Below are positions 31,332 through 60,078 of a DNA stretch of 64,000 bases, piece after piece. The stretch is from NCBI RefSeq assembly GCF_001625215.2, contig NC_030388.2:27020558-27084557 (forward strand). Direction: 5' to 3'. This DNA comes from Daucus carota subsp. sativus. Lineage: Eukaryota; Streptophyta; Magnoliopsida; Apiales; Apiaceae. Numbering within the stretch: position 1 is the stretch's first letter; every line of letters starts with the position of its first letter. The translations under genes and the position numbers were made by a program. Below the pieces are notes generated by a model, which worked only from the letters and a program-made list of their open reading frames with translations, did not search any database and was not told where the DNA came from.

Positions 31332-31363
<32 letters not shown>

Positions 31364-33225: not shown

Positions 33226-34342
33226 TTAAATATAAATTGTTACATTTTTAACTTCGACAAGAGGGGCGTTTCTCAGGATCAACCTCAACTCCTCGAGACA
33301 TTTTAATGCCAGTGCTGGGACATCAGATAAAATTGAACGTCCAACCTTTGGACAATGTTTTTGCTCTATCAGCTTTGGGTTCACTACTTTCTTAGCCTTT
33401 CTTTCGCAGCCTAAAACAGGTCTGGCCTCCGCCTTATCCACCAGATTCTTTTTCATATTCCTTGCATTAACATCAACCACGCGCATTCCTGTCAGTGTTT
33501 CTAATAACAAACAGCACTCTGAAAGCATAAACCTTGTTCTTTGAGCTCAAATGACCTGATTAGTTTAGAACATTAAAGCAACTTAATATGAACTTTAATC
33601 ATTAATCAAAAAAGAAAATAACAGACCGGCTTCTTTGTATTCTGGAGGTAATTTGCCTTCTGATCCTGCGACTTAAGTAATACCAGTTACAAGTTTATTC
33701 CCATCTGCAGAACCAAATATTGCTTTTCCACTATTACAAATCTTTGGATTGAAATCCTAACGAAAATTAGTTGTACAAAATATTGCAAATTAATAAAGAG
33801 ATTTAGTTGTTTTTTTGCTGAAAATGATTTTAGATTAGTTACAATATATAATTCAGAAAATTTAAGGTACCCCCATCTAGCAATATATTTAAGGGCCTAA
33901 ACTTGCCACAGATGATATGATCCTCTAAAGAATGCAGAAAATCAAGATATGGAGCTGCTTCTATCAATATTTTGAGCCAAACCACCCATGAAACTGATTT
34001 CTCACTATCTGCAAAATCAGATTTGTACATGTACACAGAGGCGGATTTAGTAAGAGGCACCCCAGAATCTTTTTGAACATTTTTTCACCATTCTAAATTT
34101 TACAAAATTATAGAAGTGCGCTCATAAAATTTTAAAAATATATAAGTGTTTTCTGAAAATTCTTTTGGTGTCTCCAAGATTTGGATCCTAGATCCGCCCC
34201 TGCATGTACAGATTACATAACCAGAAAACTAAATTACAAGAGTGTTTCTATCAAATATCATCACTTTCTAGCCGAGGATACTGAATAAGAAATTAATATC
34301 ACCCCACATCAAACTCAACATGCATTACTTAGTGCTCACCTC
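33226..34342 (-). pseudogene. unit A': 3' fragment of a tandem kinase gene
   Basis: Only the end of the pseudokinase half remains. Intron 3 begins at the old donor (about 34342), and exon 4 follows (about 33870-34010, readable as [20 protein letters not shown]). Exon 5 (about 33633-33757) has an in-frame TAA after LVTGIT, and exon 6 is frameshifted, with LETLTGMRVVDVNARN and [13 protein letters not shown] in displaced frames. Exons 1-3 are absent. A 167-bp hAT-like MITE sits in intron 3. This is a dead copy between units A and B. Confidence 0.85.
34036..34202. mobile_element. hAT-like MITE with 8-bp target duplication
   Basis: Termini CAGAGGCGGATTTAG and CTAGATCCGCCCCTG are inverted and the flanks are CATGTACA at 34028-34035 and 34203-34210. 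This is a textbook 8-bp hAT duplication. It is inserted in intron 3 of the pseudogene fragment A'. A related, shorter piece is at 55876. Confidence 0.85.
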
Positions 34343-38767: not shown

Positions 38768-39002
38768 CTACCTCCGTCCCAAATTAGATTAGTTAGTTGA
38801 CTTTGTGCACGTAACTTTAGATGCATTGACCGTCTACTTCCGAAATTTATTATTATTATTTTTTTTTTATAAATGAAAATTTCATATTTTAATTTTTATT
38901 TGCAAAAATAAAATTTTAAAAATAAATCATGTAGCTATGCGGTCAATGAACCTTAAATTGTGTGCCCAAAGTCAACTGGTCATCTAATTTGGGATGACGG
39001 AG
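38768..39002. mobile_element. Stowaway MITE, CCAAATTAGAT subfamily
   Basis: CTACCTCCGTCCCAAATTAG to CTAATTTGGGATGACGGAG, with TA flanks. Internal text is shared with the copies at 48659 and 50021. Confidence 0.85.
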
Positions 39003-39245: not shown

Positions 39246-42200
39246 TTACTGTACAATGCCATTAATTCTTTCTAAGATCTCCACAACTTGCTTCATTGAG
39301 GGCCGCTTTTCAGGGTCAAGATCAAGACATTGTAATGCTAGTGCTGGAACATCTGATAAAATTGAATTTAAACCCTCTGGACAGTACTTTTGCTCTAGCA
39401 GCTTCGGGTTCACTACCCGCTTAAATTTTCTTTCGCAGGCTAAAATAGGCCTGGCTTTGTTCACCAGATTCTTCTTCTTATTCCTCGTGTTAGCATCAAC
39501 AACCCGCATTCCTGTCAGTATTTCCAGTAACACCACGCCAAAAGCATAGACATCGTTCTTCGAGCTCAACTGACCTGATCATTGGAGTATGAACATTAGA
39601 TAATTAACTTGCTAAGGATTCGGATCATTAAACAGTAACACTTATAAGTTATAACAAACCAGCTTCTTTGTATTCTGGAGAGAGATATCCTTCTGATTCT
39701 GCAGAATAATGTGCATTTACACACGGAATGCCTGTTACTAGTGTATCACCATCTGAAGGACCAAGTCTTGAGCTCCCACGGATACAGATCTTTGGATTAA
39801 ATTCCTAAAAATAAGATAAAATATTTTTTTTTGAAAAACAAAACATTATTAAAAAGCTTAATGTCACGGCCTTTTGGCGGGGCTTGGCATTTAGCTGGCT
39901 TTCAGTAAGAATTATTCTACAAATTATTACAGTACATGAATTACTAAATCTCATGTACCTCATCCAGCAATATACTAGAGGGTGTTAATTCGCCAAAAAT
40001 GATATGATCCTCTGAGGAATGGAGAAAATCAAGATACCGTGCTGTTCCTATCAATATTTTGAGCCAGACAACCCAAGAAAGTGATTTTCCATTATCTGCA
40101 AAACAGATTTGTGTATGAAAATATACATAGTTAAGAAGACTTAATCAAGAAAAGTTAGTTTGATTATATTTCCCTCAGTTATATCAGCAGAAAATCAAAT
40201 TGTCTCTAGTCAAGGATACTTAATCGCAGTTTAATTAATCACTGGCAGAACTCAACATGCAGTGGTACTGCTCAGTGCTCACCTTTGTAAGCGTATCTTT
40301 CTACACTTCCATTCGGAATGTATCCATAAATAAGCAGTAATTCCTGGCCTTCTAAACAGAATCCCAAACGATTGGCAAGATTCGGATGGTTATATCTTCC
40401 ATAAAGATCCACCTCCATCTTCAACCACAATATTCAAAAAAATTATAAATCTAAAGTTATTTGATAATTTGCTTCTAAGTTTAGAGGAAAAATACCTGTG
40501 TAGTTCTGAGTCTTTGATCTGGACTACATCTTACTATGACAACTGCTTTTCCGATGCCAATTCTTGAGGGAGCAAACGTGTCTTCATCAAGCCAGCCAAT
40601 GAAAACACTTCCATAGTTTCCCTCACTCAACATCAGATCCGGACTAAAGCCTCTCGTTGTACTACTCAATTCTGCTAAGCTGAACCTCCTTGAATCAGCA
40701 GTCATCGCAAGACCCTTTGCCTGTGGGAAAATGTCAACTTTGTTCAACCTCGCTCTGTTATTTGCCTCAGGGAAAACACCTAATTTGTTCAGGCTCAATT
40801 TGTTATCAACCCTGTTTTCTTTCCTGTTGTAGCTTAATCTCTTTGCATTTGTGTGTACTGCAATAAGAGGAGATGAACTTTAGAAGGAAGCTAGGGTATT
40901 ATAGATGTGAACTATGTCGCGGATTAGTCCATACATATGAATAACAATATGAGTTTGTCTATGAAGACCAGTTTGGAATTTAGAATATGATGAAATAAAT
41001 GAATATATTTTCAAGAGAAAGTACACATACTCACCGGATAATGCTCGGATTGAGGCTAAAAGGGTCCTGCAGAACTTCCCAGAGAATGTTATCCTGGAAC
41101 GATTCATCTCAAACGACTTCACTTGATCCTCTCCATATGCCACCTCCACTGCTGCGAGATGTGGTGGACTATTACTACCACTTTTCCCCTCAAATCGAGT
41201 AAACTCTGGATTCTCTTGCAGAGCCAATGCAAATTCAAGAACTACCACAATTTCAGCCATTGTAGGACGACAATCAGGCTGGCCATTTAAGCATCGGTAT
41301 GCAATTCTCACAAAAGCCAATAAAGATTCTTTTGAAATTTCACTCTTCAGAGTAGAATCAACAATCTCAATTATTCTTCCTTGTCTTATACAAGTCTGTG
41401 CCCATCCAGCTAAACCAAATTGCTTATACTGCTTATCATCCCGACTTAAATCAACTGCTCTTCTTCCAGACAAAACTTCAAACAGCACAACTCCAAACGC
41501 GTACACATCAGATTTCCTCGTCAATCTTCCAGTCACAAAATAAGATGGATCCATATACCCAAATGTTCCCTTGACAGCAGTACTGACATAAGTGCACCCC
41601 TGATTTGCCGTGACAATCTTGGAAATTCCAAAGTCTGCAATTTTAGCTTCCAAGTGGTCATCCAACAAAATATTTGTAGTCTTCACATCACGATGTATCA
41701 CTCTTTGATGAATGCTAGTACCCGTGTGAAGATAGTCCAATCCCCGCGCAGCTCCAATACAAATCCTTAAGCGCTCAATCCACGACAAGGTGTAATAGCC
41801 TTTTTCAAAACTTCGATGCAGATGATCAGATAGAGTACCACAAGGAATATACTCAAAGACAAGAATCATTTCATTCTGTTCATCGCAATAACCAACAAGG
41901 GACACCAAGTGACTGTGTCTCAGCTTGGAAAGCATTTGAATTTCGGTCCAGAACATTGATCCTCCACATCTTTTGTTAACAAAACTCAATCTCTTTATAG
42001 CAACTGGAGTCCCTCCATTATCAATCATCCCTTTGTAGACTCTCGCGGAGCCTCCCTTACCAATCAGACATTTCTCATCAAAGCTGTTTGTTGCCAGCAA
42101 AATTTCAGCAAGTGAAAACCGGTGAAATCTTTCTCCTGATGGTATCACAAATGCCTCGTCTTTTTCACTACACTCTGTTTCATGAAGTTCACAGAGCTTG

Positions 42201-42412
42201 TAGACGATGATATTCAATATAATGAATACAAATATTACCAGAGTTGACATATCACAACCAAAAGCTCGCGTATCTTTAGTACTGGACACTTTCTTGCTGT
42301 CTTCAAACAAGTTAACGTTATTGTCAACAGCATACGATACAGCTCTGATGAAGATTGGATGGTGGAGGAACAAGATGAGGATGGTATGCACCCATTGTTG
42401 AGCACGAAACAT
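39246..42412 (-). CDS. unit B: membrane-anchored tandem kinase-pseudokinase
   Basis: Exons (complement): 41035-42412, 40496-40857, 40283-40418, 39959-40095, 39660-39804, 39246-39574. All are GT-AG with phases 1, 0, 1, 0, 1; total 828 aa. A hydrophobic N-terminal signal and a short ectodomain precede a TM segment (FVFIILNIIVYKL). Kinase 1 is CrRLK1L-like and complete: [43 protein letters not shown]. It has a small KQYK insert before FGLAGW. After two linker repeats (LNKLGVFPEANN) comes an RLCK-VII-like domain: [38 protein letters not shown]. There the ATP-binding Lys is Val (VVIVRC), the HRD position reads FGE and the DFG position IRG, so it cannot be a normal kinase. The ORF read past the first donor ends in EYVYFLL, which is intron. 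Probably a plasma-membrane signalling or immune receptor-like protein; the ligand is unknown. Confidence 0.87.
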
Positions 42413-42464
42413 GTTTTCTTTGTAGTACTGACTCTAGTGACCGCGAAACATAGTCTATTGAATT

Positions 42465-42485
42465 AGGCCTGCCCTTAATATTTAT
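42465..42485 (-). promoter_or_regulatory. conserved AAGGGCAGGCCT motif and TATA box upstream of unit B
   Basis: On the minus strand TATAAATA (about 42477-42485) is followed by AAGGGCAGGCCT (42465-42476), 53 bases before the ATG. The same AAGGGCAGGCCT lies 62 bases before the starts of units C and D. Conservation suggests a core promoter or leader element. Confidence 0.5.
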
Positions 42486-43987
42486 AGACTCATGCTAAGC
42501 AAGATAAAACTGGTAACTTGTAACTAACAACTTCCCTGATAATGATAGATAGAGGGAAGACATGACTCCTCTTACGCAGTCTCCCTGTATAAGAAATTTC
42601 TGCGCAGCTCTTTCCTAGTTCCTTTTGAACTTAAGAATTAAGTTAGTGTCACACAATTTTTTTTAACTATATTCTGAACAGACCTGTTCAACATTTTTAA
42701 AATTTACATTATCACAGATCTTACATGTATACTTCTTCTCATTTTTATATATTAAAAGTTGTTTCCAACTCTTTTCTTAGTTCCTTCTAGAGGTTTTTTA
42801 AACTCAATTATCACACTAATACAATACTGCTACAAATTCTTGTAGACAGCATCCTTAATTTTGACAATGCCACAAGTCAACTATTGATGAGCTAATCCTA
42901 AATATTTACAAACTAGCAACTGTGGGGAAATAGTTGCAGACATTTAAATCAAACGAACGAATAAAGTTCAGATTAAATGTAGAGGTTTGCGGAGAAAATG
43001 TATAAATTGAACTCATAAATATTCTTCAAGTCCTTAAGTATTGTTGTTGAAAAGAATTCCATAGGTTGTTCGATGAAACCTGACAAGGGCATGGCTGAGA
43101 TTTAAAAGGACTCCGTTTCTCTTCTAACAGTTACCACCATTTTTGATATTATTACGCTTATAAATTTGATCTATCCACCTACAGATAGAGCATGTCACAA
43201 TATAATCTCTTATTTGGAATATATGTTTGGCTTAATACATTCCTTGGCTATCCTTCAACAGTTCTTTATCTGCAACAATTTCTTAAATATAAACAGGCAA
43301 ATCCCTGTGAGAATTCAACTGGTAAACCACTTCTTCTGCATAATTTGTATTCTTTTATTTATTTAAAAAATTTCACTGATCTTTTGTGCTTAGTGATCTA
43401 ATATTCTGATCTTATGAAAATGTTCTTTTGTTATAATATAGTCCCTTCACTTATGATTTTTTAAGTTAGCATATAAAGTGCATAACTAATAATTTATTTT
43501 GTCTGGGAACTGTTCCACAGATATTATGGTTCTGGAAAACTTATGTCATCAAAATAAATCAGATATTAAAGGAACAAGATTTAAAATATATATTTCATTA
43601 AAATGAGATATGATGGAAGGCTAAAGATAAAGTCTTACAATTAAAACCAACATTACAAAGCAAAACTATGCTGAACTAGTGAGTCTTCAGTAATTATATA
43701 TAACAGGTTTAGCTAAATCACATGCAAGTACCTAATATTGCTTGAACTATCTTGAAGATGGCTTGCATATGTGGTTGAAGGTTATTAAGTTTTTAAAATT
43801 TAAACTATTGTACTTGTACTCCATGATATTTATTTTACTTTATCTGGGCAAATTTACCTCATTCTCCTTCAAAGAAATTTGTGACAAGATAATGCATTCT
43901 AATCAGGAGTGTTAATTAATATTATATATCATTACACTGATAAAATTCGATCTATCCTCACACATAATCTTTAAATCCCCACATCAC

Positions 43988-46900
43988 TCACTGTATAATG
44001 GCATTAACTCTTTCTAAGATCTCCAAAACTTGTCTCATTGAGGGTCTTTTTTTAGGGTCAAGATCAAGACATTTCAATGCTAGTGCTGGAACATCTGATA
44101 AAATTGAATTTACAACCTTTGGACATGTCTCTCGCTCTAGCAGCTTTGGGTTCACTACTCCCTTAACCTTTCTTTCGCATGCTAAAACAGGTCTGGCCTT
44201 ATTCACCAAATTTCTCTTTTTACTCTTCGAGTTCACATCAATCACCCGCCTTCCTGTCAGTATTTCCAATAGCACCACGCCAAATGCATAAACATCGTTC
44301 TTTGAGCTCAAATGACCTATTTGGTTGGAGTATGAACATTAGAACTTACTAAATATTATTTTTAGTAAGAAATTAAATAACAGATACCAGCTTTTTTGTA
44401 TTCTGGAGAAAAATAGCCCTCTGATGCTGCACAATGTTGTGCATTTAGATTAGGAAGGCCTGTTATAAGCGTACCACCATCCTTGGGCCCAAATCTTGCA
44501 CTTGCACTATAACCAATCTTGGGATTGAAATTCTAGTGACAAAATAAATTACAAAAAGAGAGCATATCAGTAAAGAGCTTTAGCTAGCTTTCAGTAAGTG
44601 CTTTAGATTTAGTTATAGTACATAGATTAAAGATTTTAATGTACCCAATCCAGCAATATACTAGAGAGTGTAAAGTCGCCAAAGATGATATGCTCCTCTG
44701 AGGAATGGAGAAAATCAAGATATTTAGCTGCTCCTATTAATATTCTGAGCCAAATAACCCAGGAAAGTGATTTCCCCCCATCTGCATTAACATATTTGTA
44801 GATGTACACATATGAAGAAATAGTTAGGAAAAAATCTACAAAAGTTTAAACTCAAATGTATCTTCACTGAAATTAAAACATTTCTAGATATTGAAGGCGA
44901 TTGTATTTAATCAACATCTGGAACTCTATGTGCATCGCTCACCTTTGTAAGCGTATCTTGCTACGTTTCCCTTCAGTGTGTATTCATAAACAACCAGGAA
45001 CTCCTGCTTTTCTAAGCAGAAGCCTAGAGGCTTAAGAACATATGGATGATAAAATCTTCCACACAGATCCACCTCTGCCTTCAACCACAAAATTAATGAA
45101 ACCAAAAGTCTCAAATACATAACTTCTCCTTAATATTGATATATAAAGTTATGTTGCATGAAGTAACATAGTTTGATGGATGTTGAAATAGTATCATTCA
45201 TAACTACCTTAGAAGTGCCAAATCGACGAACTAGAAATAACTTTCAATAATGAAAAATCCCTTAATACTCTGTAGATATTTGGATTTAAACTAATTAGCT
45301 ACAAAATTCGAAGAGAAAATACCTGCAGAATTCTAAGTCTTGCATATGAATTGGTCCTCTTGATGGCAACTAACATTCCAATGCCAATCCTTGAGGGAGC
45401 AAGCGTGTCTTCGTCAAGCCAACTAACGAAAGTCCTTCCATGGTAATTCTCACCCAATATCATATCTGGATTAAAGCCTCTTGTGGCACTTAGCAATTCA
45501 GCCAAGCTGAACATCCTTAGATTTGCATTTGCAAATAGGCCCTGTGCATCTGGAAGAATGCCCATTTTGTTCATCCTCATTCTGCTATTTTCCTCTGTGA
45601 ATATTCCAGCTTTTTTCTGGCTCACTCTGCCATCGCTTCTACTGTTTTTAGCATTACTATGTACTGATATAAGATGAGAGGAACTTTAGAAGCTACAGTA
45701 TTAAGAACACAAAGTATCATTTAAATGCACGGTCTAGTTGCCGTCCTAGTACGAAGTACATAAGTGACTAGTGAGTCCCTGAATGACTACCTATTTAAGT
45801 CCAAAAAATAAATAAATAATGCCATATTATATATTTCAAGGAATACGCCAACACGTGCAACGATGACTAACCAGATGATGACCGGATCGAGGTTGAGAGA
45901 ATCTGGCAGACCTTCCTTGAAAATGTTGCCCTCCAACGATTAATCTCAAATGGCTTGACGTGATTCTTACCATATACTACCTCCACTGCTGTGGAACATC
46001 GTCCGCTGTAACCTGTATAAATTGCCCCCTTAATTGGTGTAGCATCTGAATTTCCTTGCAATGCCAATGAAAACTCAAGAATTACCACAACTTCAGCAAT
46101 TGTTGGACGGCAACTAGGCTGTGCATTTAAACACTGGGATGCAATTTTCACAAAAGCTAATAAGGATTTTTTTGAAATTTGCATCTTCAGGTTAGAATCA
46201 ATAATTTCATTCATTCTACCTTGTTTGATACAGTTCTGAGCCCATCCAGCTAAACCTAATTGCTCATCATCTCGACTTAAATTCACAGCTCTTCTTCCAG
46301 ACAAAACTTCAAACAGCACAACTCCAAATGCATACACATCCGATTTCCTAGTCAATCTGCCTGTTGTAAAATATGATGGATCCATATATCCGAAGGTGCC
46401 CCTAACAGCTGTACTCACATAAGTGCATCCCTGATTTGTTGCCACAATCTTGGATATTCCAAAATCTGCTATTTTAGCTTCCAAATTGCCATCCAACAAT
46501 ATATTAGTACTTTTCACGTCACGATGTATGACTCTTTGACTGGTGCTAGTACCAGTGTGAAGGTAGTCCAACCCCTGTGCAGCTCCAATACAAATTTTTA
46601 ACCGTTGAATCCATGATAAGGTGTCATAACCTTTCACAAAACTTTGATGCAGATGATCAGATAGAGTGCCTTGGGAAATATACTCAAACACGAGGATCAT
46701 TTCATGCCATTCATGACAATAGCCAACAAGGGACACTAAGTGACTGTGCCTAAACTTGGAAAGCATCTCAATCTCTGTCCTAAACATTGATCCTACAGCT
46801 TGTTTGGAAATGTAACTCAATCTCTTTATAGCAACAGTAGTCGCTCCATCATCAATCACTCCTTTGTAGACTTTCGCGGATCCTCCCTTTCCAATTAGAC

Positions 46901-47243
46901 ACTCCTCATCAAAGTTATTTGTTGCTAGCAAAATCTCTGCAAGTGAAAAACAGCGACATATACCCCCTGATGCTAGCAAAAAATTCAGGTCTTCTTCAGT
47001 ATACTCGGGTTCATGAAGTTCACGGAGCTTGTACATGATGATATTTAATATAACAAATAAAACCATTGTCAAATTTACAATATTATAAGTAAAAGTTCGC
47101 ATCTCCACTGTACAGGACGCTCTCTCGTTGTCCTTAGAGAACTTAAACTTATCATCTATAAGAGATGATATAGCTGTGATTAATATGGGATGGTGGAGGA
47201 GGAACATGAGGATGGTATATACCCATACTTGAGCAAGAAACAT
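43988..47243 (-). CDS. unit C: membrane-anchored tandem kinase-pseudokinase
   Basis: Exons (complement): 45872-47243, 45323-45663, 44943-45078, 44645-44781, 44388-44532, 43988-44316; 2460 nt, 819 aa, same phases as unit B. Residues 1-25 are a signal-like hydrophobic stretch, followed by about 30 ectodomain residues and a TM segment at 55-73. Kinase 1 (about 105-400): G-loop [11 protein letters not shown] from 118, K140 in VAIKRL, HRD 240-242, DFG 260-262, then [11 protein letters not shown]. It resembles CrRLK1L kinases such as FERONIA but there is no malectin ectodomain. The linker begins at V458. Kinase 2 (about 507-815) starts LRMFSLAELLSATRGFNP and keeps K559 (VAIK). Its glycine loop is GENYHGRT, HRD is FGD, the SNILLD Asn is Ser, and DFG is replaced within IGYSASARFG, which marks a pseudokinase. 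The last exon, [22 protein letters not shown], is well kept. Confidence 0.9.
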
Positions 47244-47304
47244 GCTTTCTTTGTAGTACTGAATCTATTGATGTCGGAATTATATGAATTTACCAATGGA
47301 ACAT

Positions 47305-47316
47305 AGGCCTGCCCTT
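47305..47316 (-). promoter_or_regulatory. conserved AAGGGCAGGCCT motif upstream of unit C
   Basis: Same 12-base motif as upstream of units B and D, 62 bases before the ATG at 47243. No TATA box beside it here. Confidence 0.4.
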
Positions 47317-47701
47317 CAATTTTTAGTTACTCATACTAAAGGAAGATTACGTGACAAATTACATGATAATGATAGAAAGAGAAATAATATATGACTCCTT
47401 CCCCTCGTAAATAAATTTCTGCACAGCTCTTTTCTAGTTTCTTTTAAAATTGAAAATTTTGTGGGGCAAAAAAATTCATATGATCCTGGTAAGCGTTTCT
47501 CACAGCATCTCAAGATTTTAGGATCACTTAACATGATATCTGGCGGGAGACTTGAGTTCGACTCCCTGCAATCCCCAATATTCTCACATCGCTAAAAGAT
47601 GTGGATCAAATGGGTGCCTAGATATTGAATGGATCCGGATGGTTTCAAGCTTGAATGAATGAGTGGACCAAAGAACCTAACAGAATAACGTGGTGGTTAT
47701 A

Positions 47702-47968
47702 CTCCCTCCGTCCCACAATACATGTCTCTTTTGAAAAAATTACGCATATTAAGAAAACATTAATTAGATAGAATTTTCTCACTTGTACTCCTGATGATAA
47801 ATGCATGAATGTAGACTCTTATTCAACCCTTATTAATTGTTATACAATTTTCAAGAATGATAATTTTGAAATAATGTCAATATATTTGCATTGGAAATTA
47901 AAAATGGACAAGTATTATGAGACAAAACTTTTTTCCAAAAAGAGACTTGCATTGTGGGACGGAGGGAG
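47702..47968. mobile_element. Stowaway MITE
   Basis: CTCCCTCCGTCCCACAATAC to GCATTGTGGGACGGAGGGAG, with TA on both sides. Upstream of unit C. Confidence 0.88.
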
Positions 47969-48323
47969 TATCATTTATCGAAGGTAAAGTTTAAATCCTT
48001 ACATAACGGCAAACAGAAATGTGAGGTCTTGAGATTGTCCCTTGCATCTTCCTCCCAACATCTTGAATTTTGAGTAAAACTGGTGACTTGATGACAATCA
48101 ACTCTTGAACAATTCAATGCAGCTTCTTTCAGACAGCAAATGAGAGCAAGACAATTCAAACAATCCTTGTTGACTCTGAGACAAGTCAAGTACCGATGAT
48201 ATCTACAGTTATTATCTTGAGGGGACAGGCCTTTGGGTGGTTGACACCAAGACCAAGTCCCTCGTATATTGAACTCGTAAATGCTTCAGTACTCGTGAAG
48301 TGTTGTTGGGTCTTGAAATAGTA

Positions 48324-48558
48324 CTCCCTCTGTCCCATTTTAACTGATGTTTGACTTTTTAACACGTATATTGAGGCGTAAAAAAATAATATCTACACTC
48401 AATAAAAAATTTCAATTCTTATCTCAAATAAAAGTTTGAATTCTAAACTTTTATTTGATATAAATTTTATAAAAAATAATTATGTTTAGATGTGATTTTT
48501 TTAACATCTTAAAATACGTGTAAAAAAATCAAAAGCAGTTAAAATGGGACGGAGGGAG
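48324..48558. mobile_element. Stowaway MITE
   Basis: CTCCCTCTGTCCCATTTTAAC to GTTAAAATGGGACGGAGGGAG, TA flanks. Interior AT-rich. Confidence 0.88.
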
Positions 48559-48658
48559 TAATAAGCTTAGCTACAGAATTTGGACACATTCATGAAATTT
48601 CAGATTTCAGATAAAGAATGATTTATTAACCGTCAATGTCAACTGTAAATCTGTAATA

Positions 48659-48894
48659 CTCCCTCCATCCCAAATTAGATGAGCTAGTTGACTGTGGGCA
48701 CGTAACTTAACGTACATTAACCGTATAGTTCCGATTTTTTTTTAAAAAATTTTCTTTTGTAAATGAAAATTTCATATTTAAATTTTTATTTGCAAAAATA
48801 AAATTTCAAAAATAAGTAATGTAGCTATACGATCAATAGATTTTAAAGTGCGTGCTCGAAATCAATGAGCTCATCTAATTTGGGATGGAGGTAG
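48659..48894. mobile_element. Stowaway MITE, CCAAATTAGAT subfamily
   Basis: CTCCCTCCATCCCAAATTAG to CTAATTTGGGATGGAGGTAG, TA flanks. Internal wording (GTTGACT, GGGCACGTAACTT) is shared with 38768 and, inverted, with 50021. Confidence 0.88.
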
Positions 48895-49443
48895 TAACTT
48901 TCTAAGTCACACTCAAAATATTGTCATTGTGCAGCCTTTATATCGACAATGTTGATTTCAATTTCATGTTAGAAACTTGCATGTTGGCTATATATCTTTT
49001 GATGACATGATAAAGTTATCTTTATCTAGTGCAAACAATCAAAGATATAGACAGAGTAAATTAGAAGACCTTATAACTCTTAATTATATCGATTAACTTT
49101 TCATGTTTTAACTCGACCAATTTAACAATCAAAATATTCGTTACATACTTAGTAACTCTCATACCAAAATAAATGATTGTGAATTGTCAAGTTTACCCCT
49201 CCGTTATGTAACATTTTATCACTTTATATCGGTTTGAGAGATAATTGTTAGATAACACATATTTGGAGGGTTAAATCGCCTAATTAAAATATTGAGGTCG
49301 TATCGGTACACCCCACCAAATACAGAGAGTTAAAAGAATATTAAACAGTTTCAAAAATTATAATAGTAATTTTTATGCTAGCACAATGCGGTTGCGGTTT
49401 GAATAATAATTAACAATTATTTGAAGAGACATACTAAATATAT

Positions 49444-49472
49444 TAGTAGTAGTAGTAGTAGTAGTAGTAGTA
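49444..49472. repeat. (TAG)n microsatellite
   Basis: About nine to ten perfect TAG repeats in AT-rich intergenic DNA. Confidence 0.9.
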
Positions 49473-49549
49473 ATATGAGTACTAAGAAACATATTATAAT
49501 AATATAATCATTTCATACAAATTGAGTATAATAATAATGCGAGATTTAT

Positions 49550-49996
49550 AGATTTCATTATCTCTTTGGTGTAGATTTTTAATTTTTTTTGACTTATTAT
49601 AATTTTGAGTTACCTTCCTTATTTCTTAAGAATCTCTATAATATCTTTATATATTTATTTTTTTAATTATTAGTTTGTTGGTTTTTCTTTTATGTTGGTT
49701 TTAATCGATTTTATTATATTTGTTTATATAAACTTCTTACGTTCTTGTATTTATATTGTATTTTTTCAGGGTACTTGACATGAATAAAGGATGAAAAGTA
49801 GAACCAGACCTCCTATGGATGTTTTCTTATCGAACATTAAAGATTTATTGTCTAAGTGTCCCCGGTTATCTTGCATGTCCGAGGGTTAGATGGTAAACTT
49901 TCATGAACGAAAGGAACTCTTGGCTGCGGCTATTGTATTATGATACAATTCGTTTATACGGGAAATTAAGTATCTTGTGGCAAAAAAAAAAAAAAA
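49550..49996 (+). mobile_element. poly-A-tailed retroposed fragment (5'-truncated LINE or processed transcript)
   Basis: TAATAATGCGAGATTTAT occurs at 49532-49549 and again at 49997-50014. The second copy directly follows a run of about 13-15 A. An 18-bp direct repeat plus 3' poly-A is the mark of LINE-type target-primed insertion. The body has no recognisable protein; the segment near 49,770-49,980 is richer in GC than its surroundings. Confidence 0.7.
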
Positions 49997-50020
49997 TAAT
50001 AATGCGAGATTTATCAAATA

Positions 50021-50257
50021 CTACCTCCATCCCAAATTAGATGAGCTCATTGACTTCGAGCACGCACTTTAAAGTCCATTGACCGCATAGCTACATTACT
50101 TATTTTTGAAATTTTATTTTTGCAAATAAAAATTTAAATATGAAATTTTCATTTACAAAAGAAATTTTTTTTAAAAAAAATTCGGAACTATACGGTCAAT
50201 GTACTTTAAGTTACGTGCCCAAAGTCAACTAGTTCATCTAATTTGGGATGGAGGGAG
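50021..50257. mobile_element. Stowaway MITE, CCAAATTAGAT subfamily
   Basis: CTACCTCCATCCCAAATTAG to CTAATTTGGGATGGAGGGAG with TA flanks. It sits immediately beside the retroposed fragment and is a near inverted copy of the element at 48659. Confidence 0.88.
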
Positions 50258-51161
50258 TAATAATTAACAAATATGTACATAAGATAATTATAAATAATAT
50301 ATATAGATATATAATATATTTTTATTTGATAGTTATTAATATATTTATATGTGTATAATATTGTGGTGTGGTGTTGGTTGAATTATACTAGTAATATGTC
50401 AAACCGCAACCGACACCACACCGTGCGGTTTGTGAAAAGTTCAAACTGCAATCATATCACGAAAATTAAAAATCGCATTTCGTGGTACAGTGCGGATGAT
50501 TTTATACGATTTCAGCGGATTTTGATTACCTCTCAGATTTGAAGAATGAGTTGGAGACGTTTGGATTAAAGTTGTGAATGAGAATGAGAAATAGAGATAG
50601 GGATACAGAAATGAGGATTAACTGGAAATGAAAATGATATGGAAACACAACAAGAGTGGATTTGAGTTCTCATTCCATGTAACTAATAACTAATCCAAAC
50701 AGTTATATATGAGATTGAGGTTCCGTTTCTTTATCAAGTATGAATCAAACACACCACGTTTTTTATGCATTTTCATCATAACCCGAAAACTTCATCTTTG
50801 AAAACTGTTGCTTGCATGTCCACCGGACAGGATTTTTAAGCGAGCTCATTCTTATATCATAAATCTTCTCCCATCCCGTCAAAGCAGGAGTCATCTTTAA
50901 ATAGTCCTGTACAGAATTGATTGCAGGGACAGGCCGCCCGGCTGAGATTTGCAAGAACTCTAGGTTCCGTTTTAGCAATCTAGCAAGCACCGCCTTCATA
51001 AATGGCTTAATCAAGGGATGAGTCTGTAGACCAAAAGTCAGCGTCTACCATTTTTGTTGTACTTCATTTTCTTCCTCATTTGAGATGTCACCTGATTCAA
51101 TTTGGTCAGCATTTCACACTGGGGATCATATGTTTAATCCGGAAAGTAATCTTAAATGCTA

Positions 51162-51408
51162 CTCTCTCCGTTTCAATTTACATGTCCAATTTCAAGAAAA
51201 CTTTTTGTTTCAAATTACTCCACTTCAACTTTCAATGCAAAATCATATTTTCAAAGTCAATTCTACTCCACATATCTCTTATTTATATTTCCTAGATCAA
51301 TCTCACTCCACATATTTTGATCATTTAATGCAATTAATTTATGAACAACCACTTTTCTTAAACTGTGTGATTTTTTTAAAGTGGACATCTAATTTGAAAC
51401 GGAGGGAG
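51162..51408. mobile_element. Stowaway-like MITE
   Basis: CTCTCTCCGTTTCAA to TTGAAACGGAGGGAG are inverted ends. TA precedes the left end; TC follows the right, so one target base has changed. Confidence 0.78.
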
Positions 51409-52476
51409 TCCGTTTATCAACTTCTCCGCTTATATCATGTTTGGTTCCAACCACGTTCAAGATCATCATTCAACAAATTTAGCCATCTCACTTGTAAGAA
51501 ACCCTCCGAAACTCATTTATAATGCCTCTACATCAGTGTGGTCTGGTGTAGCAAGCTTAAAGTCTATAGTACTCTATTGCTTTATCTCTTATTTTGAATA
51601 TATGATTGGCTTAATACATTCTCGGCTATCCTTAAATATTTTTATCTGCAGCAATTTCTTCAATATATACAGGCAGATTCCTGTAAGAATTCATCTTGCA
51701 CAACTGAGAAACCACATCTTCTGCATAATTTGTATTCTTTTATTTGTTTATTTATAAATGACTGACCTTTTGAGTTTAGTAATGTAATAATATTCTGATC
51801 TTATGAAAATGTGCTTTTGTTATGATATTGTCCCTTAACTAACGGTTTATTATGCTTACATATCAAGTGCAGAACTAGTACTTTATTTTGTGCACGCGGG
51901 AACTGTTTTATAGATATTGTGATGCTTGAAAATGTATATTATTAAAATAAATCAGATAATAAGGGAGGAGATTTTAAAAAACACATTTCATTACAATAAG
52001 AGAAGACGGAAAGCTAAAGAGATAAGTCTTACAATTAAAACCAAAAATTAAAAAGCAAAATTATGCTGAACTAGTGAGTCTTCAGTAATTATATATAACA
52101 AGTTTTAGATAATTTAACAATCAATATGGAGACCGGTTAGCTAATTAACACGTAAGTCGCTAGTATTGCTTGAACATAAGTTTTTAAAGATGGTATGCAT
52201 ATGTGGTTGAAGGTTCTTAAGTTTTTAAACTATTGTAATTGTACTCCATGACATTTATTTTACTTTATCTTGGCAAATTTGCCTCATTTTCCTTCAAAGA
52301 AATTTGTAACAAGATAATGCATTCTGATCTGGAGTGTAAAATTATGAAATATCATTACACAGATAAAATTTGATCTATCCAAACTTAGAAAGCATGTCAC
52401 AGTATTGAGTAATCTTAAAATCCCCATATCACTCGATGTTTTTTTATCCAAAAAAAAAATATAATCCCCACATCAC

Positions 52477-55400
52477 TCACTGTATAATGGCATTAACTCT
52501 TTCTAAGATCTCCAGAACTTGTCTCATTGAGGGTCTTTTTTTAGGGTCAAGATCAAGACATTTCAATGCTAGTGCTGGAACATCTGATAAAATTGAATTT
52601 ACAACCTTTGGACATGTCTCTCGCTCTAGCAGCTTTGGGTTCACTACTCCCTTAACCTTTCTTTCGCTTGCTAAAATAGGTCTGGCCTTATTCACCAAAT
52701 TTCTCTTTTTATTCTTCGAGTTCACATCAATCACCCGCCTTCCTGTCAGTATTTCCAATAGCACCACGCCAAATGCATAAACATCGTTCTTTGAGCTCAA
52801 ATGACCTATTTGGTTGGAGTATGAACATTAGAACTTACTAAATATTATTATTAGCAAGAAAGTAAACAACAGATACCAGCTTTTTTGTATTCCGGAGAAA
52901 AATAGCCTTCTGATGCTGCACAATGTTGTGCATTTAGATTAGGAAGGCCTGTTATGAGCGTACCACCATCCTTAGGGCCAAATCTTGCACTTGCACTATA
53001 ACCAATCCTGGGATTGAAATTCTAGTAATATAATAAATTTCAAAAAGAGAGCATATTAGTAAAGAGCTTTAGCTAGCTTTCAGTGAGTAATTGCTTTAGA
53101 TTTAGTTATAGTACATAGATTACAAATTATGTACCCAATCCAGCAATATACTAGAGAGTGTAAAGTCGCCATAGATGATATGATCGTCTGAGGAATGGAG
53201 AAAATCAAGATATCTAGCTGCTCCTATTAATATTTTGAGCCAAATAACCCAGGAAAGTGATTTCCCCTCATCTGCATTAACATATTTGTAGAAGTACACA
53301 GATGAAATGGTTAGGAGAAAATCTACAACATTTTATATATTTAATAAAAATCTTAAATGTATCTTCACTGAAATTAAAACATCTCTAGATATTAAAGGGG
53401 ATTGTATCTAATCAACATCTGGAAGTCTAAGGGCAGTGCTCACCTTTGTAAGCGTATCTTGTTACGTTTCCCTTCAGTGTGTATTCATAAACAACCAGGA
53501 ACTCCTGCTGTTCTAAACAGAAGCCCAGAGGCCTAAGAACATATGGATGGTTAAATCTTCCACACAGATCCACCTCGGCCTTCAACCACAAAATTAATGA
53601 AACCACAAGTCTCAACAACATATTTTCTCCTTAACATTGAAATATAAAGGTATGTTGCATGAAATAACATAGTTGGATGGATGTAGAAATAGTATCATTC
53701 ATAACTACCGATAGAAGTGCCTAATGGACGTACTAGAAATAACTTTCTATTATGAAAATTGAAGAGAAAATACCTGCAGAGTTCTAAGTCTTGCATATGA
53801 ATTGGTTCTCTTAATGCCAACTGCCATTCCAATGCCAATCCTTGATGGAGCAAGCGTGTCTTCGTCAAGCCAACCAATGAAAGCCCTTCCATAGTGATTG
53901 TCACCCAATATCATATCTGGAATAAAGCCTCTTGTTGCACTTACCAATTCAGCCAAGCTGAACATCCTTAGATTTGCATTTGCAAATAGGCCCTGTGCAT
54001 CTGGATAAATGCTTATATTGTTCATCCTCATTCTGTTAAATTCCTCTGTAAAAGTTCCAGCTATTTTCCGGCTCACTCTGCTATCGACCCTACTGTTTTT
54101 AGCATTACTATGTACTGAAATAAGATGAGAGGAACTTTAGAAGCTAGGGTATTGAGAACACAGAGTATGCACTGTACACGTCAAAGCAATTAACTTCTGA
54201 CAGACCAATCCATGGCCGCATATTCATGTTAATTTTGTGAATCTTTCTACACTTATTATCATCCTGCTCTTCTATAATACTCTAGTTATTCCCACAGTCA
54301 TGATTGTCTTAAGAGAAATGATTCACACTATGAAGTACATGAGTGACTAGTGAGTCCCTGAATGACAACCAATTTGAGTCCAAAAATAAACAAAAAATGC
54401 CATTCAATATATTTCAAGGAACGATGACTAACCAGATAATGACTGGATTGAGGCTGAGAGAATCTGGCAGACCTTCTTTGAAAATGTTACCCTTCTACGA
54501 TTAATCTCAAATGGGTTGACTTGATTCTTACCATATACTACCTCCACTGCTGTGGAACATCGTCCGCTCTCCCCTGCAAAAATTGCCCCCACAACTTGTG
54601 TAGAATCTGAATTTCCTTGCAATGCCAGTGCAAACTCAAGAACTACCACAATTTCAGCAATTGTAGGACGGCAACTAGGTCGTGCATATAAACACTGGGA
54701 TGCAATTTTCACAAAAGCCAATAACGATTTTTTTGAAATTTGCATCTTTAGGTTAGAATCAATAATTTCATTCATTCTACCTTGTTTGATACAATTCTGT
54801 GCCCATCCAGCTAAGCCTAATTCCTCATCATCTCGACTAAAATCCACAGCTCTTCTTCCAGACAAAACTTCAAACAGCACAACTCCAAATGAATACACAT
54901 CTGATTTCCTGGTCAATCTGCCTGTCGTGAAATATGCTGGATCCATATATCCGAAGGTGCCCCTAACAGCTGTACTCCCACAAGTGCATCCCGGAATTGT
55001 TGCCACAATCTTGGATATACCAAAATCTGCTATTATAGCTTCCAAATTGTCATCCAACAAGATATTGGTACTTTTCACGTCGCGATGTATGACTCTTTGA
55101 CTGGTGCTAGTACCAGTGTGAAGGTAGTCCAACCCCTGTGCAGCTCCAATACAAATTTTTAACCGTTGAATCCATGTTAAGCTGTCATAACCTTTCACAA
55201 AACTTTCATGCAGATGATCAGATAGAGTGCCTTGGGAAATATATTCAAACACGAGGATCATTTCATGCCCTTCATGACAATAGCCAACAAGAGACACTAA
55301 GTGGCTGTGCCTGAAGTTGGAAAGCATCTCAATTTCTGTCCTAAACATTGATCCTACAGCTTGTTTGGAAATGTAACTCAATCTCTTCATTGCAACTGTA

Positions 55401-55804
55401 GTCGCTCCATCATCAATCACTCCTTTGTAGACTTTCGCGGATCCTCCCTTTCCAATTACACATTCCTCATCAAAGTTATTTGTTGCTAACATAATTTCTG
55501 CAAGTGAAAAACGGCGACATATACCCCCTGATGCTAGCAAAAATTTCTGGTCTTCTTCAGTATACTCGGGTTCATGAAGTTCACGGAGCTTGTACACGAT
55601 GATATTTAATATAGCAAATAAAACTATTGTCAAATTTACAATATTGTAAGTAAAAGTTTGTATCCCCCCTGTACTGAAAACTTTCTCGTTGTCCTGAGAG
55701 AACTTAAACTTATCATCTATAAGAGATGACATAGCTGTTATTAATATGGGATGGTGGAGGAGGAACATGAGGATGGTATATACCCATACTTGAGCAAGAG
55801 ACAT
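52477..55804 (-). CDS. unit D: membrane-anchored tandem kinase-pseudokinase
   Basis: Exons (complement): 54433-55804, 53774-54114, 53444-53579, 53135-53271, 52877-53021, 52477-52805; 2460 nt, 819 aa, every exon the same length as in unit C, its closest relative. Signal-like N-terminus and TM (IVLFAILNIIVYKL) as in C. Kinase 1 keeps [25 protein letters not shown] and DFGISK. Changes from C lie around the activation loop (LEAIIADFG, ATIPGCTCGSTAV) and in the catalytic-Lys neighbourhood. Kinase 2: VGIKRTN keeps Lys, the HRD position reads YGD, and the DFG position is IGYSASARFG. The final exon differs from C's by a few residues only. Coding sequence looks intact, with no stop or frameshift. The conserved upstream motif is interrupted by a 72-bp insertion, so expression may differ from C. 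Confidence 0.9.
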
Positions 55805-55875
55805 GCTTTCTTTGTAGTACTGAATCTATTGGTGTTGAAATTATATGAATTTACTAAGGGAACATAGGCCTGCCC

Positions 55876-55947
55876 AGGGGCGGATCTAGGAAGAGGCACG
55901 GGGGGACCATTCTAAATTTTACAAAATTATACTAAAATTGAAGGGCC
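55876..55947. mobile_element. short hAT-like insertion upstream of unit D
   Basis: Begins AGGGGCGGATCTAGG, like the hAT-type MITE terminus, and shares TTCTAAATTTTACAAAATTATA with the element at 34036. GCCTGCCC stands at both borders (55868-55875, 55948-55955), an 8-bp duplication. Unit C lacks it, so it inserted after the C/D duplication. Confidence 0.75.
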
Positions 55948-56862
55948 GCCTGCCCTTCAATTTTTTAGTTACTCATACTAATGAAGATTAAACTGGTAAC
56001 TTGTATGTAAAAAATTACCTGATAATGATAGATAGTAGGAGAACATGAATCCTCTCTCCTTGTATAAGAAATTTCAATGACAGGAGTGATCTTTGAATAC
56101 TCATGTATATAACCTGTGTGGCTGTGCTGCTTCTTCTAGACAGGAAACTAGATTAAGACAATTCAAACAATCCTTGTTGACTATGAGACAAGTCAAGTAC
56201 TAATATATTCATAGTTATTTCCTCGAAGGGCCAGGCCGCTTGGGTTGAATTGTTGGGTGGTGCCTGGTGGACACCAAGTCCCTCATGTTGACCGCAATCC
56301 TATTATGTGCTCTTTTGCGCATTTTCTGCACATATTTAGCTTATCTGAAGTACAGATGCTGAATTTAGTGTGTGTGTGTGTGTGAGGGCGGAGGATAGAA
56401 GCCAAGACGATTAATCAAGTATGAAACCACACACATAGGATCGCTGTTGGTGAGGAATCCCTGGAAATATGCTGTGTGTTTGTGTTTTGAGTTGAGGAAT
56501 GAGAAGAAATTGTTCTACAAATTCAAACATTACTCTGATTCAGTGAACCTTACCAGAACATAGTGCATACTTAATGGCGAATGTTAAAAGAGTGATGTCA
56601 AGCCTTAGAGAGAACTTGCATAAAGCTTAGAAGACAGTAGTAAAGAGTAAAAATCAACTTTTATTCAAAATTTATAATGAACTATTTCATACAAGCACTG
56701 AAACCAGAAAATGGTAAAAATTGTCAAAAAACCTTTTAAAAGAATTTCATGAGGAGGTAAGTATGCATTCCAAAAATCATAAATCTGTATTTAGTATTAC
56801 AATCAAATATAAAATAACTACTCTAGAATAAAACTTGTTACCTTCAAGCAAAAACATCCCAT

Positions 56863-59800
56863 TTACTTTATAATGGTATTGAGTTCTTCTAAGATCTCCA
56901 CAACTTGTCTCATTGAGGGGCGTTTTTCAGGCTCAATATCAAGGCATTTTAATGCCAGTGCTGGAACATCTGATAAAATTGACTGTACTCCCTTTGGACA
57001 ATACTTCTGCTCTAGCAGCTTCGGGTTTACCACCGTCTTAAACTTTCCTTCGCAGGCTAGATAAGGTCTGGCCTTATCCACCAAATTCATCTTCTTATTC
57101 CTTTCATTAACATTGACCACTCTGATTCCTGTCAGTATTTCTAATAACACCACGCCGAAAGCATACACATCGTTCTTTGAGCTCAACCGGCCTGCACGGG
57201 GAATTGGAACATTAGCACAGCTTTACTAAGGGGGTGTTTGGTTCATGGTTAATGAGCCCGGTTAACACGAATCAGAACTTCAAACCCATGCATAGGTGTT
57301 TGGATTAGTTATTTGGTGCTATGAAATGGGAACCCCAATCTTCTTAGGTGGTTAAATCATGCCCTTCCCACCCTTTGGGTTTCCATATCATTCCCATTCT
57401 CGTTAACCCCCATTCCCATTCCTGTTAACCAATCCCAACCTTAATCCAAACAGCCCCTAAAAAATTTATGTTTAAACGAATAAATAAATAACAGACCCGC
57501 TTCTCTGTATTCTGGAGATAAATAGCCCTCTGATCCTGGACAATAGTGTTCATCTACACGAGGAATGCCTGTTACAAGCATATCACCATCTGCAGGAGCA
57601 AATCTTGCGCCTCCACTAATGTATACCTTTGGATTGAATCCCTAAAATAAAATGGTGATATAAATAGAAGCTATAGCTGGCCTCTTGGAGAGCATTGCTC
57701 AAGATACAGTCAACATTACAAAAATGACATATAATGTACCTCGTCCAGCAACACATGAGCCAGCTTAAAGTCGCCATAGATGACATGATCCTCTGAGCAA
57801 TGGAGAAAAGCAAGATATCGAGCTGCTCCTAACAATATTTTGAGCCAAATAACCCAGGAAAGTGATTTCCCATTTTCTGCAAAAGTAGCATTTGTATATC
57901 AAAAGCTCAAAATTATAAAATTCCCCATTAACATATCTCTGGAAATTAAAATTAAGAATGTAAGATGTCACTATCCGGAATTCAACATGTTCTCAGTGCT
58001 CACCTTTGTATGCATATCTCTCTAAGTTTCCCTTTGTTGAGTATTCAAAACAAAGCAGGAACTCCTGGCCTTCTAAACAGAATCCTAAAAGCTTAACAAG
58101 ATTCGGATGAGAATATCTTCCACACAGATCCACCTCCATCTCCTTCCACAAAATTCAAAAAAGCAAAATCTCAACGATACTTATTACTTTAAATTTGAGA
58201 ATGCGAAGGATAGTGCCCTGTGACACATAATTAAATGGACGTAGAAATAGTAATACCTGCAGAATACTACTAGAAATTACTCATGGCCGCGATAAAGTTT
58301 AAATGGATATTAATCATCTTCAAGGTTATGCGACAATCAGCCGGAAATTTACAACTGAAAGTACCTGCATAGCTCTAAATATGTCGAGATTATATCTTCT
58401 AATGACAACTGCCATTCCAGTGCCAGTACTTGAGGGGGCATACGTGTCTTCGTCAAGCCAACCAATATAAAACCTTCCACGTTTTCCAGTAGCCAACAGC
58501 ATATCTGGACTAAAGCCTCTAGTTGCGCTACACAATTCAGCTAAGTTGAACCTCCTTACGTTTGCAGTCATCATGAGGCCCTTTGCCTCTGGATAAACGT
58601 CAATTTTGTTTGTTTCTAGCCATGCGCGAATTTTGTTCAGTCTCACTCGGTTACTGAACACACTGTTTTTGCTTCTGTTGTAGCTGGAATTTTTTGCATT
58701 ACTACTATGCACTGAAAAAGAGGAGAGAACTTTTAGATGGAAGTGTATATTTCTTCAAGAAACACGCACACACACAACACGATCCAGACTAACCAGATAA
58801 TGCTCGTATAGGAGTTGAAAGTATCTGGAAGACCTTCCTTGAGAACGTTATCCTAGTCCGATTCATCTCAAACGGCTTCATTTGATGTGCGCCATACACT
58901 ACCTCCACTGCTGTAGAATTCTGTACACTATCACTAGGAATTGCCCCAACAACACGACTAGAATCTGGACTCTCTTGCAATGCCAATGAGAACTCAAGAA
59001 CTACCACAACTTCGGCCATCGTTGGTCTGCAACTGGGCTTCCTATCTAGGCATCGGTATGCAATTTTCACGAAAGCCAATAAAGAATTTTCTGAAATTTG
59101 CGTCTCCAGATTAGCATCAATGATCTCACTTATCCTTCCCTCATTGACACAGTTTTGTGCCCATCCAGCTAAACCCGATTGCTCATCATCGCGACTTAAA
59201 TCCACTGCTCTTCTACCAGACAAAACTTCAAACAACACAACTCCAAACGCATACACATCTGATTTCCGTGTCAATCTGCCAGTCGAAAAATATGCTGGAT
59301 CCATATACCCGAATGTGCCCCTGACAGCAGTACTCACACAAGAGCATCCCTGATTCAATTCGGCAATCTTGGAAATTCCAAAATCTGCAATTTTAGCTTC
59401 CAAGTTGTCATCCAACAAAATATTCGTACTCTTCACATCACGGTGTATCACTCTTTGATGAGTGCTCGTACCCGTGTGAAGGTAGTTCAAGCCCTGCGCG
59501 GCTCCAATACATATCCTTAACCGCTGAATCCATGACAAGGAGTCATAACCTTTTTCAAAACTCCGATGCAGGTGATCAGACAGTGTACCACTGGGAATAT
59601 ACTCAAACACAAGGATCATTTCACGCGATTCATCACAATAACCAATAAGGGACACCAATTGACTGTGCCTGAACCTGGAAAGCATCTCAATTTCGGTTGA
59701 GAACACTGAGCCTCCAGCTTCTTTGGAAACAAAACTCAATCTCTTTATAGCAACTGGAGTTTCTCCATTATCAATCATTCCTTTGTAGACTTTCGCAGAG

Positions 59801-60078
59801 CCTCCCTTTCCTATCAGATACTTGCTGTCAAAGTTGTGCGTCGCACACAAAATCTCATCAAGGGAAAAGCGACGACATAGTTGCCCTGGTGACATCAAAA
59901 CCATCTTGTCTTTCCCATCATACTTAGCTTCATCAAGTTCACGGAGCTTGTAGGCTATGATATCCAATATAGCAAGTACTAAAATCACCAAATTTACAAT
60001 ATCACAGCTAAAGGCTCGTGTCTCGGACGCTTTGTTGTCCATGAAAATGGTGTAAATCCAAAGGTGAGCAAAGAACAT
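56863..60078 (-). CDS. unit E: tandem kinase-pseudokinase with shortened N-terminus
   Basis: Exons (complement): 58794-60078, 58365-58711, 58004-58139, 57740-57876, 57497-57641, 56863-57191; 2379 nt, 792 aa, phases as in its paralogues. The N-terminus [13 protein letters not shown] jumps straight to [13 protein letters not shown]. About 25-30 residues that complete the signal peptide in B-D are missing, while the TM ([16 protein letters not shown]) stays. It may insert as a signal-anchor protein. Kinase 1 is complete: [43 protein letters not shown]. Kinase 2 ([21 protein letters not shown]) has GKRGRFYIG, Arg for the ATP-binding Lys (VVIRRY), YGD for HRD, AHVLLDE for SNILLD, and [10 protein letters not shown] where DFG should be. 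A 228-bp Harbinger-type MITE lies in intron 5. It is the first gene of the array in transcription direction. Confidence 0.87.
57230..57457. mobile_element. PIF/Harbinger (Tourist-like) MITE in intron 5 of unit E
   Basis: GGGGGTGTTTGGTTCATGG at the left and TTAATCCAAACAGCCCC at the right, with TAA at 57227-57229 and 57458-57460. The other units lack it at this site. Confidence 0.8.

Follow-up and report, generated by a model that had tools for sequence, protein, structure and literature searches.

The question raised by this locus is whether a row of kinase genes in carrot (Daucus carota subsp. sativus) encodes fused proteins, each with two kinase domains of different subfamilies, or whether every copy is a pair of adjacent genes. 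The locus lies in a window of 64,000 nucleotides (assembly GCF_001625215.2, contig NC_030388.2, positions 27,020,558 to 27,084,557 of the forward strand), and all coordinates given here are positions within this whole stretch. The gene models argue for one fused gene repeated as an array, in which each intact copy would encode a single protein of about 800 residues, composed of a FERONIA-type RD kinase (kinase 1), a linker and a pseudokinase (kinase 2) that would derive from the RLCK-VII kinases.

The array and its gene models

The minus strand carries five head-to-tail copies, A to E, from about 29.7 to 60.1 kb, and four of the five (B to E) are intact; the limits 39,246-60,078 of the intact part correspond to the stop of B and the start codon of E. 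The copies were rebuilt from a DNA alignment of all five and then spliced, and what follows on B to E refers to these gene models. Each has six exons (828, 819, 819 and 792 amino acids in B, C, D and E, respectively), none of the four spliced frames contains an internal stop, and in all four of them introns 1 to 5 have GT-AG ends and phases 1, 0, 1, 0 and 1. The features of the array are as follows.

58794..60078 (minus): gene E exon 1; kinase 1 preceded by a short N-terminus with a single hydrophobic segment
58711-58365, 58139-58004, 57876-57740, 57641-57497, 57191-56863 (minus): gene E exons 2-6; linker and kinase 2
58712..58793 (minus): intron 1 of E, 82 nt, donor GTTAGT
54433..55804 (minus): gene D exon 1; signal-like segment, transmembrane segment, kinase 1
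54114-53774, 53579-53444, 53271-53135, 53021-52877, 52805-52477 (minus): gene D exons 2-6; linker and kinase 2
45872..47243 (minus): gene C exon 1; signal-like segment, transmembrane segment, kinase 1
45663-45323, 45078-44943, 44781-44645, 44532-44388, 44316-43988 (minus): gene C exons 2-6; linker and kinase 2
41035..42412 (minus): gene B exon 1; signal-like segment, transmembrane segment, kinase 1
40857-40496, 40418-40283, 40095-39959, 39804-39660, 39574-39246 (minus): gene B exons 2-6; linker and kinase 2
33292..34045 (minus): sixth member; kinase-2-only fragment with stops, covering parts of exons 4-6
29748..32823 (minus): copy A, broken
31149-30740, 30629-30494, 30406-30270, 30169-30107, 30076-29748 (minus): copy A exons 2, 3, 4, 5' part of 5, and 6
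30978..31068 (minus): 45-nt (15-residue) linker repeat unit of copy A

The common layout that the initial annotation had assigned to four intact genes and a broken fifth is borne out by the spliced frames, which are open in all four. C and D, whose exons are 90-99% identical, are read as recent duplicates. Copy A is broken twice, in exon 1 by a 4-nt duplication and in exon 5, whose 3' half has been lost along with the donor; its linker is longer than those of B to E and contains a tandem repeat of a 45-nt unit that encodes 15 residues. The count of five copies stands for B to E and A, but it had overlooked the sixth member; this kinase-2-only fragment lies between A and B in the same orientation, with its end about 470 nt upstream of the A start codon. 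Searches with kinase 1 of B and of E gave no match between the fragment and copy B, and the fragment is probably the 3' remnant of a lost neighbouring array member.

Two further observations concern the array. An inverted repeat with 216-nt arms that are 84% complementary (38760-38975 and 50050-50265) flanks B and C, and its arms are possibly copies of a mobile element. In the five-copy alignment intron 5 of E alone carries an insertion (about 57230-57457, minus) with inverted terminal-like ends, GGGGCTGTTTGG ... CCAAACACCCCC, which looks like a small transposable element.

The junction between exon 1 and exon 2

Exon 1 ends in TCTG (A, C, D and E) or TCCG (B) and is followed by GT, while exon 2 begins with TA (A to D) or TG (E), so that a Val codon is restored. 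Alignment and splicing agree here with the initial description of the junction, including the matching phases of the later introns. The donor itself, GTNAGT, is kept in all five copies, as GTTAGT in A, C, D and E and as GTGAGT in B. GTTAGT places an in-frame TAG directly at the end of exon 1, and for this reason exon 1 alone resembles a finished gene in A, C, D and E. This stop is the strongest argument for two genes, and B argues against them: it has no TAG at the donor, and retention of intron 1 would extend the protein by 50 residues beyond the junction Gly. Since GTNAGT is present in five of five copies although B is without the TAG, it is the donor and not the stop which appears to be conserved. 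Across the five copies, identity is 93% over the 6 donor columns, drops to 39% over the 30 that follow and is 65-66% over the 60 beyond these; in the 30 alignment columns before the acceptor it is 83%, with 64% and 33% in the two preceding bins.

Intron 1 measures 82, 177, 208 and 318 nt in E, B, C and D, respectively. The first Met of exon 2 is found at residue 52, 29, 29 and 47 in B, C, D and E, and because this position varies there is no start for a stand-alone kinase 2 that would serve the whole family. RLCK-VII kinases have an N-terminal exon with a Met-Gly-x-Cys lipid anchor; the 3 kb preceding each of B to E contain no Met-Gly-x-Cys match, and the one match upstream of A is not shared. 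A stand-alone kinase 2 gene was therefore rejected, as there is neither a common start codon nor a common Met-Gly-x-Cys first exon. AATAAA is absent from intron 1 in all four intact genes but likewise from the 250 nt that follow the last stop codon in each of them. Groupings from kinase 1 and from exons 3-6 agree, with C and D together in 300 of 300 resamplings in both and A and E together in 269 and 294 of 300. The conserved donor, the lack of a common start in exon 2, the 82-nt intron and the matching groupings all speak for the single fused gene, repeated as an array, that had been claimed from the start. Retention of intron 1 might furthermore act as a built-in switch between a one-kinase and a two-kinase form in A, C, D and E, a possibility that does not extend to B.

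Kinase 1 is of the FERONIA type

Searches of PDB and Pfam with kinase 1 were made for B. The best solved sequence was FERONIA (296 bits), followed by 3hgk (269), 2qkw (267), SymRK (221), RIPK (211) and BIK1 (196); 3hgk, listed as 'Protein kinase', and 2qkw are both presumably Pto. Over 293-294 positions, kinase 1 of B to E shares 51-53% identity with the FERONIA kinase. It is an RD kinase, and its VAIK Lys, HRD, Asn and DFG are present in each of the five copies, for A as far as the frameshift. In every copy the sequence of the glycine loop is GKGGSA, against GVGGFG in FERONIA, with the third glycine replaced by Ala, and the APE Glu (DPEY in FERONIA) is Ala or Ser in all five. Of the 'complete FERONIA-like kinase' first proposed, the FERONIA type is upheld by the 100-bit lead of FERONIA over BIK1 in B, but completeness is not, given the altered loop and APE Glu. 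A search for prokaryote relatives with exon 1 of B as query gave four stretches that matched a pattern, none of which was confirmed.

The stretch before the putative transmembrane segment is short in B to E, and Pfam returned only kinase families for exon 1 of B, with no malectin-like ectodomain. For B, C and D hydropathy predicts two N-terminal segments, one of them signal-like, as the initial annotation had it for all copies; in E it predicts a single N-terminal segment, and the signal region is shortened by a 75-nt (25-codon) gap with respect to B, C and D, plus smaller gaps.

Kinase 2 is of the RLCK-VII type and degenerate in the intact genes

Kinase 2 was matched to PDB at full length for B, C and E and in part for A. 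The scores for BIK1, PBL2, RIPK and FERONIA were 206, 204, 181 and 125 bits for B, 213, 198, 180 and 112 for C, and 223, 208, 184 and 125 for E, while the part of A gave 173 for PBL2, 160 for BIK1 and 100 for FERONIA. In B, C and E, BIK1 scored 81-100 bits above the best chain from another family, which supports the earlier assignment of the second domain to a different subfamily, RLCK-VII.

The catalytic-loop Asn and the DFG Asp are gone from kinase 2 of B to E; the VAIK Lys is missing too in B and E, as is the catalytic Asp in B, while C and D keep both Lys and catalytic Asp. Judged from these motifs, B to E lack what marks an active RLCK-VII kinase. Copy A, alone of the five, retains the Lys, the catalytic Asp, the Asn and the DFG Asp (as DSG). 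The description of the second domain as a pseudokinase thus holds by motif for B to E but not for A, and a uniformly dead second domain is ruled out by this broken copy. In a BIK1-rooted tree A branches first with the shortest root path (branch 0.075), B to E form a clade with bootstrap 86 of 100 and B joins C and D with 73; the BIK1 outgroup branch is very long (1.38) and the rooting accordingly weak. Repeated independent loss of the DFG Asp was considered, but since this weakly rooted tree places A first, a single loss before B to E is enough. Kinase 2 has probably become a pseudokinase within the family, once A had diverged. In B to E a 7-residue insertion is present in the activation segment, which differs from that of BIK1 and is too altered for a known effector target site to be recognised in kinase 2.

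Frame conservation and unequal constraint

Among the six pairs of B to E, which are not independent given their common ancestry, exons 3-6 align without gaps in every pair, exon 1 has only gaps that are multiples of three in all six, and exon 2 has such gaps in five of the six. The remaining exon 2 pair, C-E, has aligner gaps of 14, 5 and 3 with a net length difference of 6. In introns 1-5, 74 of the 97 pairwise gaps are not multiples of three. When the exon 2-6 frame of E was subjected to neutral simulation, it stayed open in 182, 28, 2 and 0 of 2000 lineages at 0.05, 0.1, 0.2 and 0.25 changes per site, respectively. The gap pattern of exons and introns, together with this simulation, indicates that the open frames exceed chance.

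The ratio dN/dS (NG86, same six pairs) is 0.18-0.26 for kinase 1 and 0.38-0.64 for kinase 2, against 0.48-1.56 for the N-terminal part, 0.31-1.99 for the exon-1 tail and 0.37-1.21 for the linker. Exon 6, which encodes the C-lobe of kinase 2, has values of 0.22-0.32 in five of the six pairs (Fisher p 2e-7 to 8e-5) and a non-significant 0.96 in pair C-D. By these values kinase 1 is under strong purifying selection and kinase 2 under looser constraint except in its last exon. From the ratios per domain and per exon we read kinase 2 as translated, with its C-lobe held and its N-lobe and cleft loose. The same asymmetry, a Ka/Ks of 0.14 for kinase 1 and 0.77 for the pseudokinase, is given for Pm57 versus Lr9 in the available text of PMC11153570.

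Other features of the window

Outside the array two open stretches at 5925-7361 (minus) match Malectin_like (Pfam PF12819) and are, by this match, part of another receptor-like gene. At 22503-23282 (plus) there is a short-chain dehydrogenase stretch (PF00106), presumably resembling 3-ketodihydrosphinganine reductase. In the 64-kb window ARAGORN predicted no RNA genes and Rfam gave no matches at gathering score. The G+C content of the window is 29.5-41.4% per 2 kb.

Proposed protein and alternative explanations

The gene models, the subfamilies, the loss of motifs, the array and the unequal constraint are read directly from the DNA; to these we add, conditionally, a membrane topology, an origin by exon replacement, kinase activity, a sensing mechanism and a role in immunity. 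The N-terminal anchor would sit in the membrane, and both kinase domains would be cytosolic since they lie C-terminal to the N-terminal hydrophobic segment. Most likely a single-exon receptor-kinase gene would have replaced the first exon of an RLCK-VII gene, an origin which leans on the gene structure generally ascribed to RLCK-VII kinases; the transmembrane anchor would have taken over from the usual lipid anchor, and tandem duplication would have followed the fusion. Kinase 2 would be a built-in bait or docking domain mimicking relay kinases such as BIK1 and RIPK, which serve FERONIA-type receptors and are attacked by pathogens, and its binding or modification would be read by kinase 1, as proposed for the tandem kinase-pseudokinase resistance proteins of cereals. 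FERONIA and the RLCK-VII kinase RIPK are described as forming a complex with mutual phosphorylation (PMC10515002, available part), and a docking or bait domain is suggested because the fusion pairs one partner type of this complex with a dead copy of the other. In the accessible portions of the cereal literature the second kinase of Lr9 is hypothesised to be an integrated decoy and the extra domains of Sr43 to have a decoy role as well (PMC10260399), and helper NLRs work with Sr62 and RWT4 (PMC12830362). An immune function of the carrot genes may be proposed by analogy. Taken as a whole, a membrane-anchored fused protein in which kinase 1 reads out a docking or bait domain is a plausible account, which we hold tentatively and at a little under even confidence.

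Several observations weigh against it. The activity of kinase 1 is uncertain because the third loop glycine and the APE Glu are gone in all five copies, and the first kinase of WTK1, like Pm57, is described as non-RD in the texts available, whereas kinase 1 here is RD. The putative membrane segment comes from hydropathy alone, at a threshold that flags some windows within the kinase domains too, and in E a large part of the signal segment is absent. Exon 2 by itself groups B with E in 197 of 300 resamplings. The activation segment of kinase 2, unlike that of BIK1, does not seem to reproduce a known effector target site faithfully. Finally, Fisher tests of exons 2-5 gave p<0.05, uncorrected, in just seven of 24 exon-by-pair combinations, and for that reason much of kinase 2 may be merely relaxed.

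The same fused protein might instead act in cell-wall or growth signalling, with the tethered dead relay mimic competing with or scaffolding RIPK/BIK1-type partners and so damping the receptor. The FERONIA-RIPK complex would suit such a role, as would a kinase 1 nearest to FERONIA (in B) beside a kinase 2 nearest to RLCK-VII and the strong constraint on the C-lobe exon in five of six pairs, yet exon 1 of B has no malectin-like ectodomain in Pfam that could take a RALF ligand. Fast-turning gene arrays with broken copies are, moreover, more usual for defence genes. We regard a role in growth as unlikely, though it deserves attention. A further alternative accepts a transcribed fusion but takes kinase 2 as a degenerating passenger, kinase 1 being sufficient, perhaps as an intron-1-retained isoform that stops at the donor. 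The stepwise loss of catalytic residues, dN/dS not distinguishable from 1 in 17 of the 24 exon 2-5 tests, the immediate TAG upon intron-1 retention in A, C, D and E, and the decay of A and of the sixth fragment would all fit a passenger; against this, the kinase 2 frame is open in all four intact copies, exon 6 is held at its low ratio in five of six pairs, and B would read through a retained intron for 50 residues rather than stop. We regard a mere passenger as rather improbable. The last alternative takes each copy as two genes, with an intronless receptor-like kinase that stops at the donor or close to it and a separate RLCK gene downstream; here the stop at the end of exon 1 in four copies must be set against its absence in B, the mere 82 nt between the parts in E, the lack of a start codon common to the family and the missing Met-Gly-x-Cys exon, and we consider this explanation very improbable.

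Comparison with known tandem kinases

Tandem kinases form a class of plant resistance proteins that is still young. That kinase-pseudokinase tandem proteins exist, as the initial annotation stated, is established (PMC6170490, available text). B to E share with Yr15/WTK1, with the WTK-vWA proteins Lr9 and Pm57 and with Rpg1 two kinase domains in one predicted protein, in a single open frame in all four, of which the second is degenerate (not so in the broken A), and selection on the two domains is unequal, as reported for Pm57 and Lr9. What differs here is the pairing of a FERONIA-type with an RLCK-VII-type domain, the predicted N-terminal anchor and the RD kinase 1. The set of 92 proteins in PMC6170490 is described, in the text at hand, without a transmembrane or extracellular part, whereas B to E have a predicted hydrophobic segment before kinase 1; its RLK-related domains were assigned to L-LPK, LRR, RLCK, RK and WAK, and the main text, as available, nowhere uses the word CrRLK1L.

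Membrane anchoring as such is not new. In Pm36/WTK7-TM a C-terminal transmembrane segment is needed for resistance (PMC11006675, in its available part), so that the published class already admits one. That protein likewise combines tandem kinases with a transmembrane segment, but the segment is single and C-terminal and both domains belong to the LRR_8B subfamily, with duplication suggested, whereas in carrot the predicted segment is N-terminal and the domains come from two subfamilies. Of the claim to an undescribed membrane-anchored fusion, what survives is this pairing with an N-terminal anchor: a CrRLK1L and RLCK-VII fusion is not named in the titles and abstract openings among the matches listed, a scope within which absence from print is not established. 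In sunflower 67 CrRLK1L-1 members have more than one kinase domain (PMC11646777); the available text does not state the partner domain, which may or may not match the present layout, and the same arrangement may therefore already sit unnamed in a table. Compared with CrRLK1L receptors such as FERONIA, the carrot proteins have no malectin-like ectodomain (in B), a second kinase domain and the changes in glycine loop and APE motif. Kinase 2 finds its best matches in BIK1, PBL2 and RIPK of RLCK-VII, but differs from these kinases by the loss of the DFG Asp and Asn in B to E, by the 7-residue insertion and by having no conserved lipid-anchor exon that could be found.

The carrot genes fit the known tandem-kinase plan, with a pairing and a predicted N-terminal anchor for which no description was found among the matches listed. 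A stronger proposition would be that they are an undescribed class of membrane-tethered tandem-kinase sensors outside the cereal WTK lineages, in which a FERONIA-type kinase acquired a dead copy of its relay kinase in exchange for the relay's lipid anchor, and which diversified as an array with a drifting cleft and a constant C-lobe; we think this doubtful, if worth stating. If the fusion is real, the joining of a FERONIA-type and an RLCK-VII domain would be a physical hint of their partnership, signalling of FERONIA through RIPK being known. The array offers matched natural variants whose two halves evolve at different rates, and with it one could directly test, outside the wheat and barley genes, whether the second kinase serves as bait or as switch.

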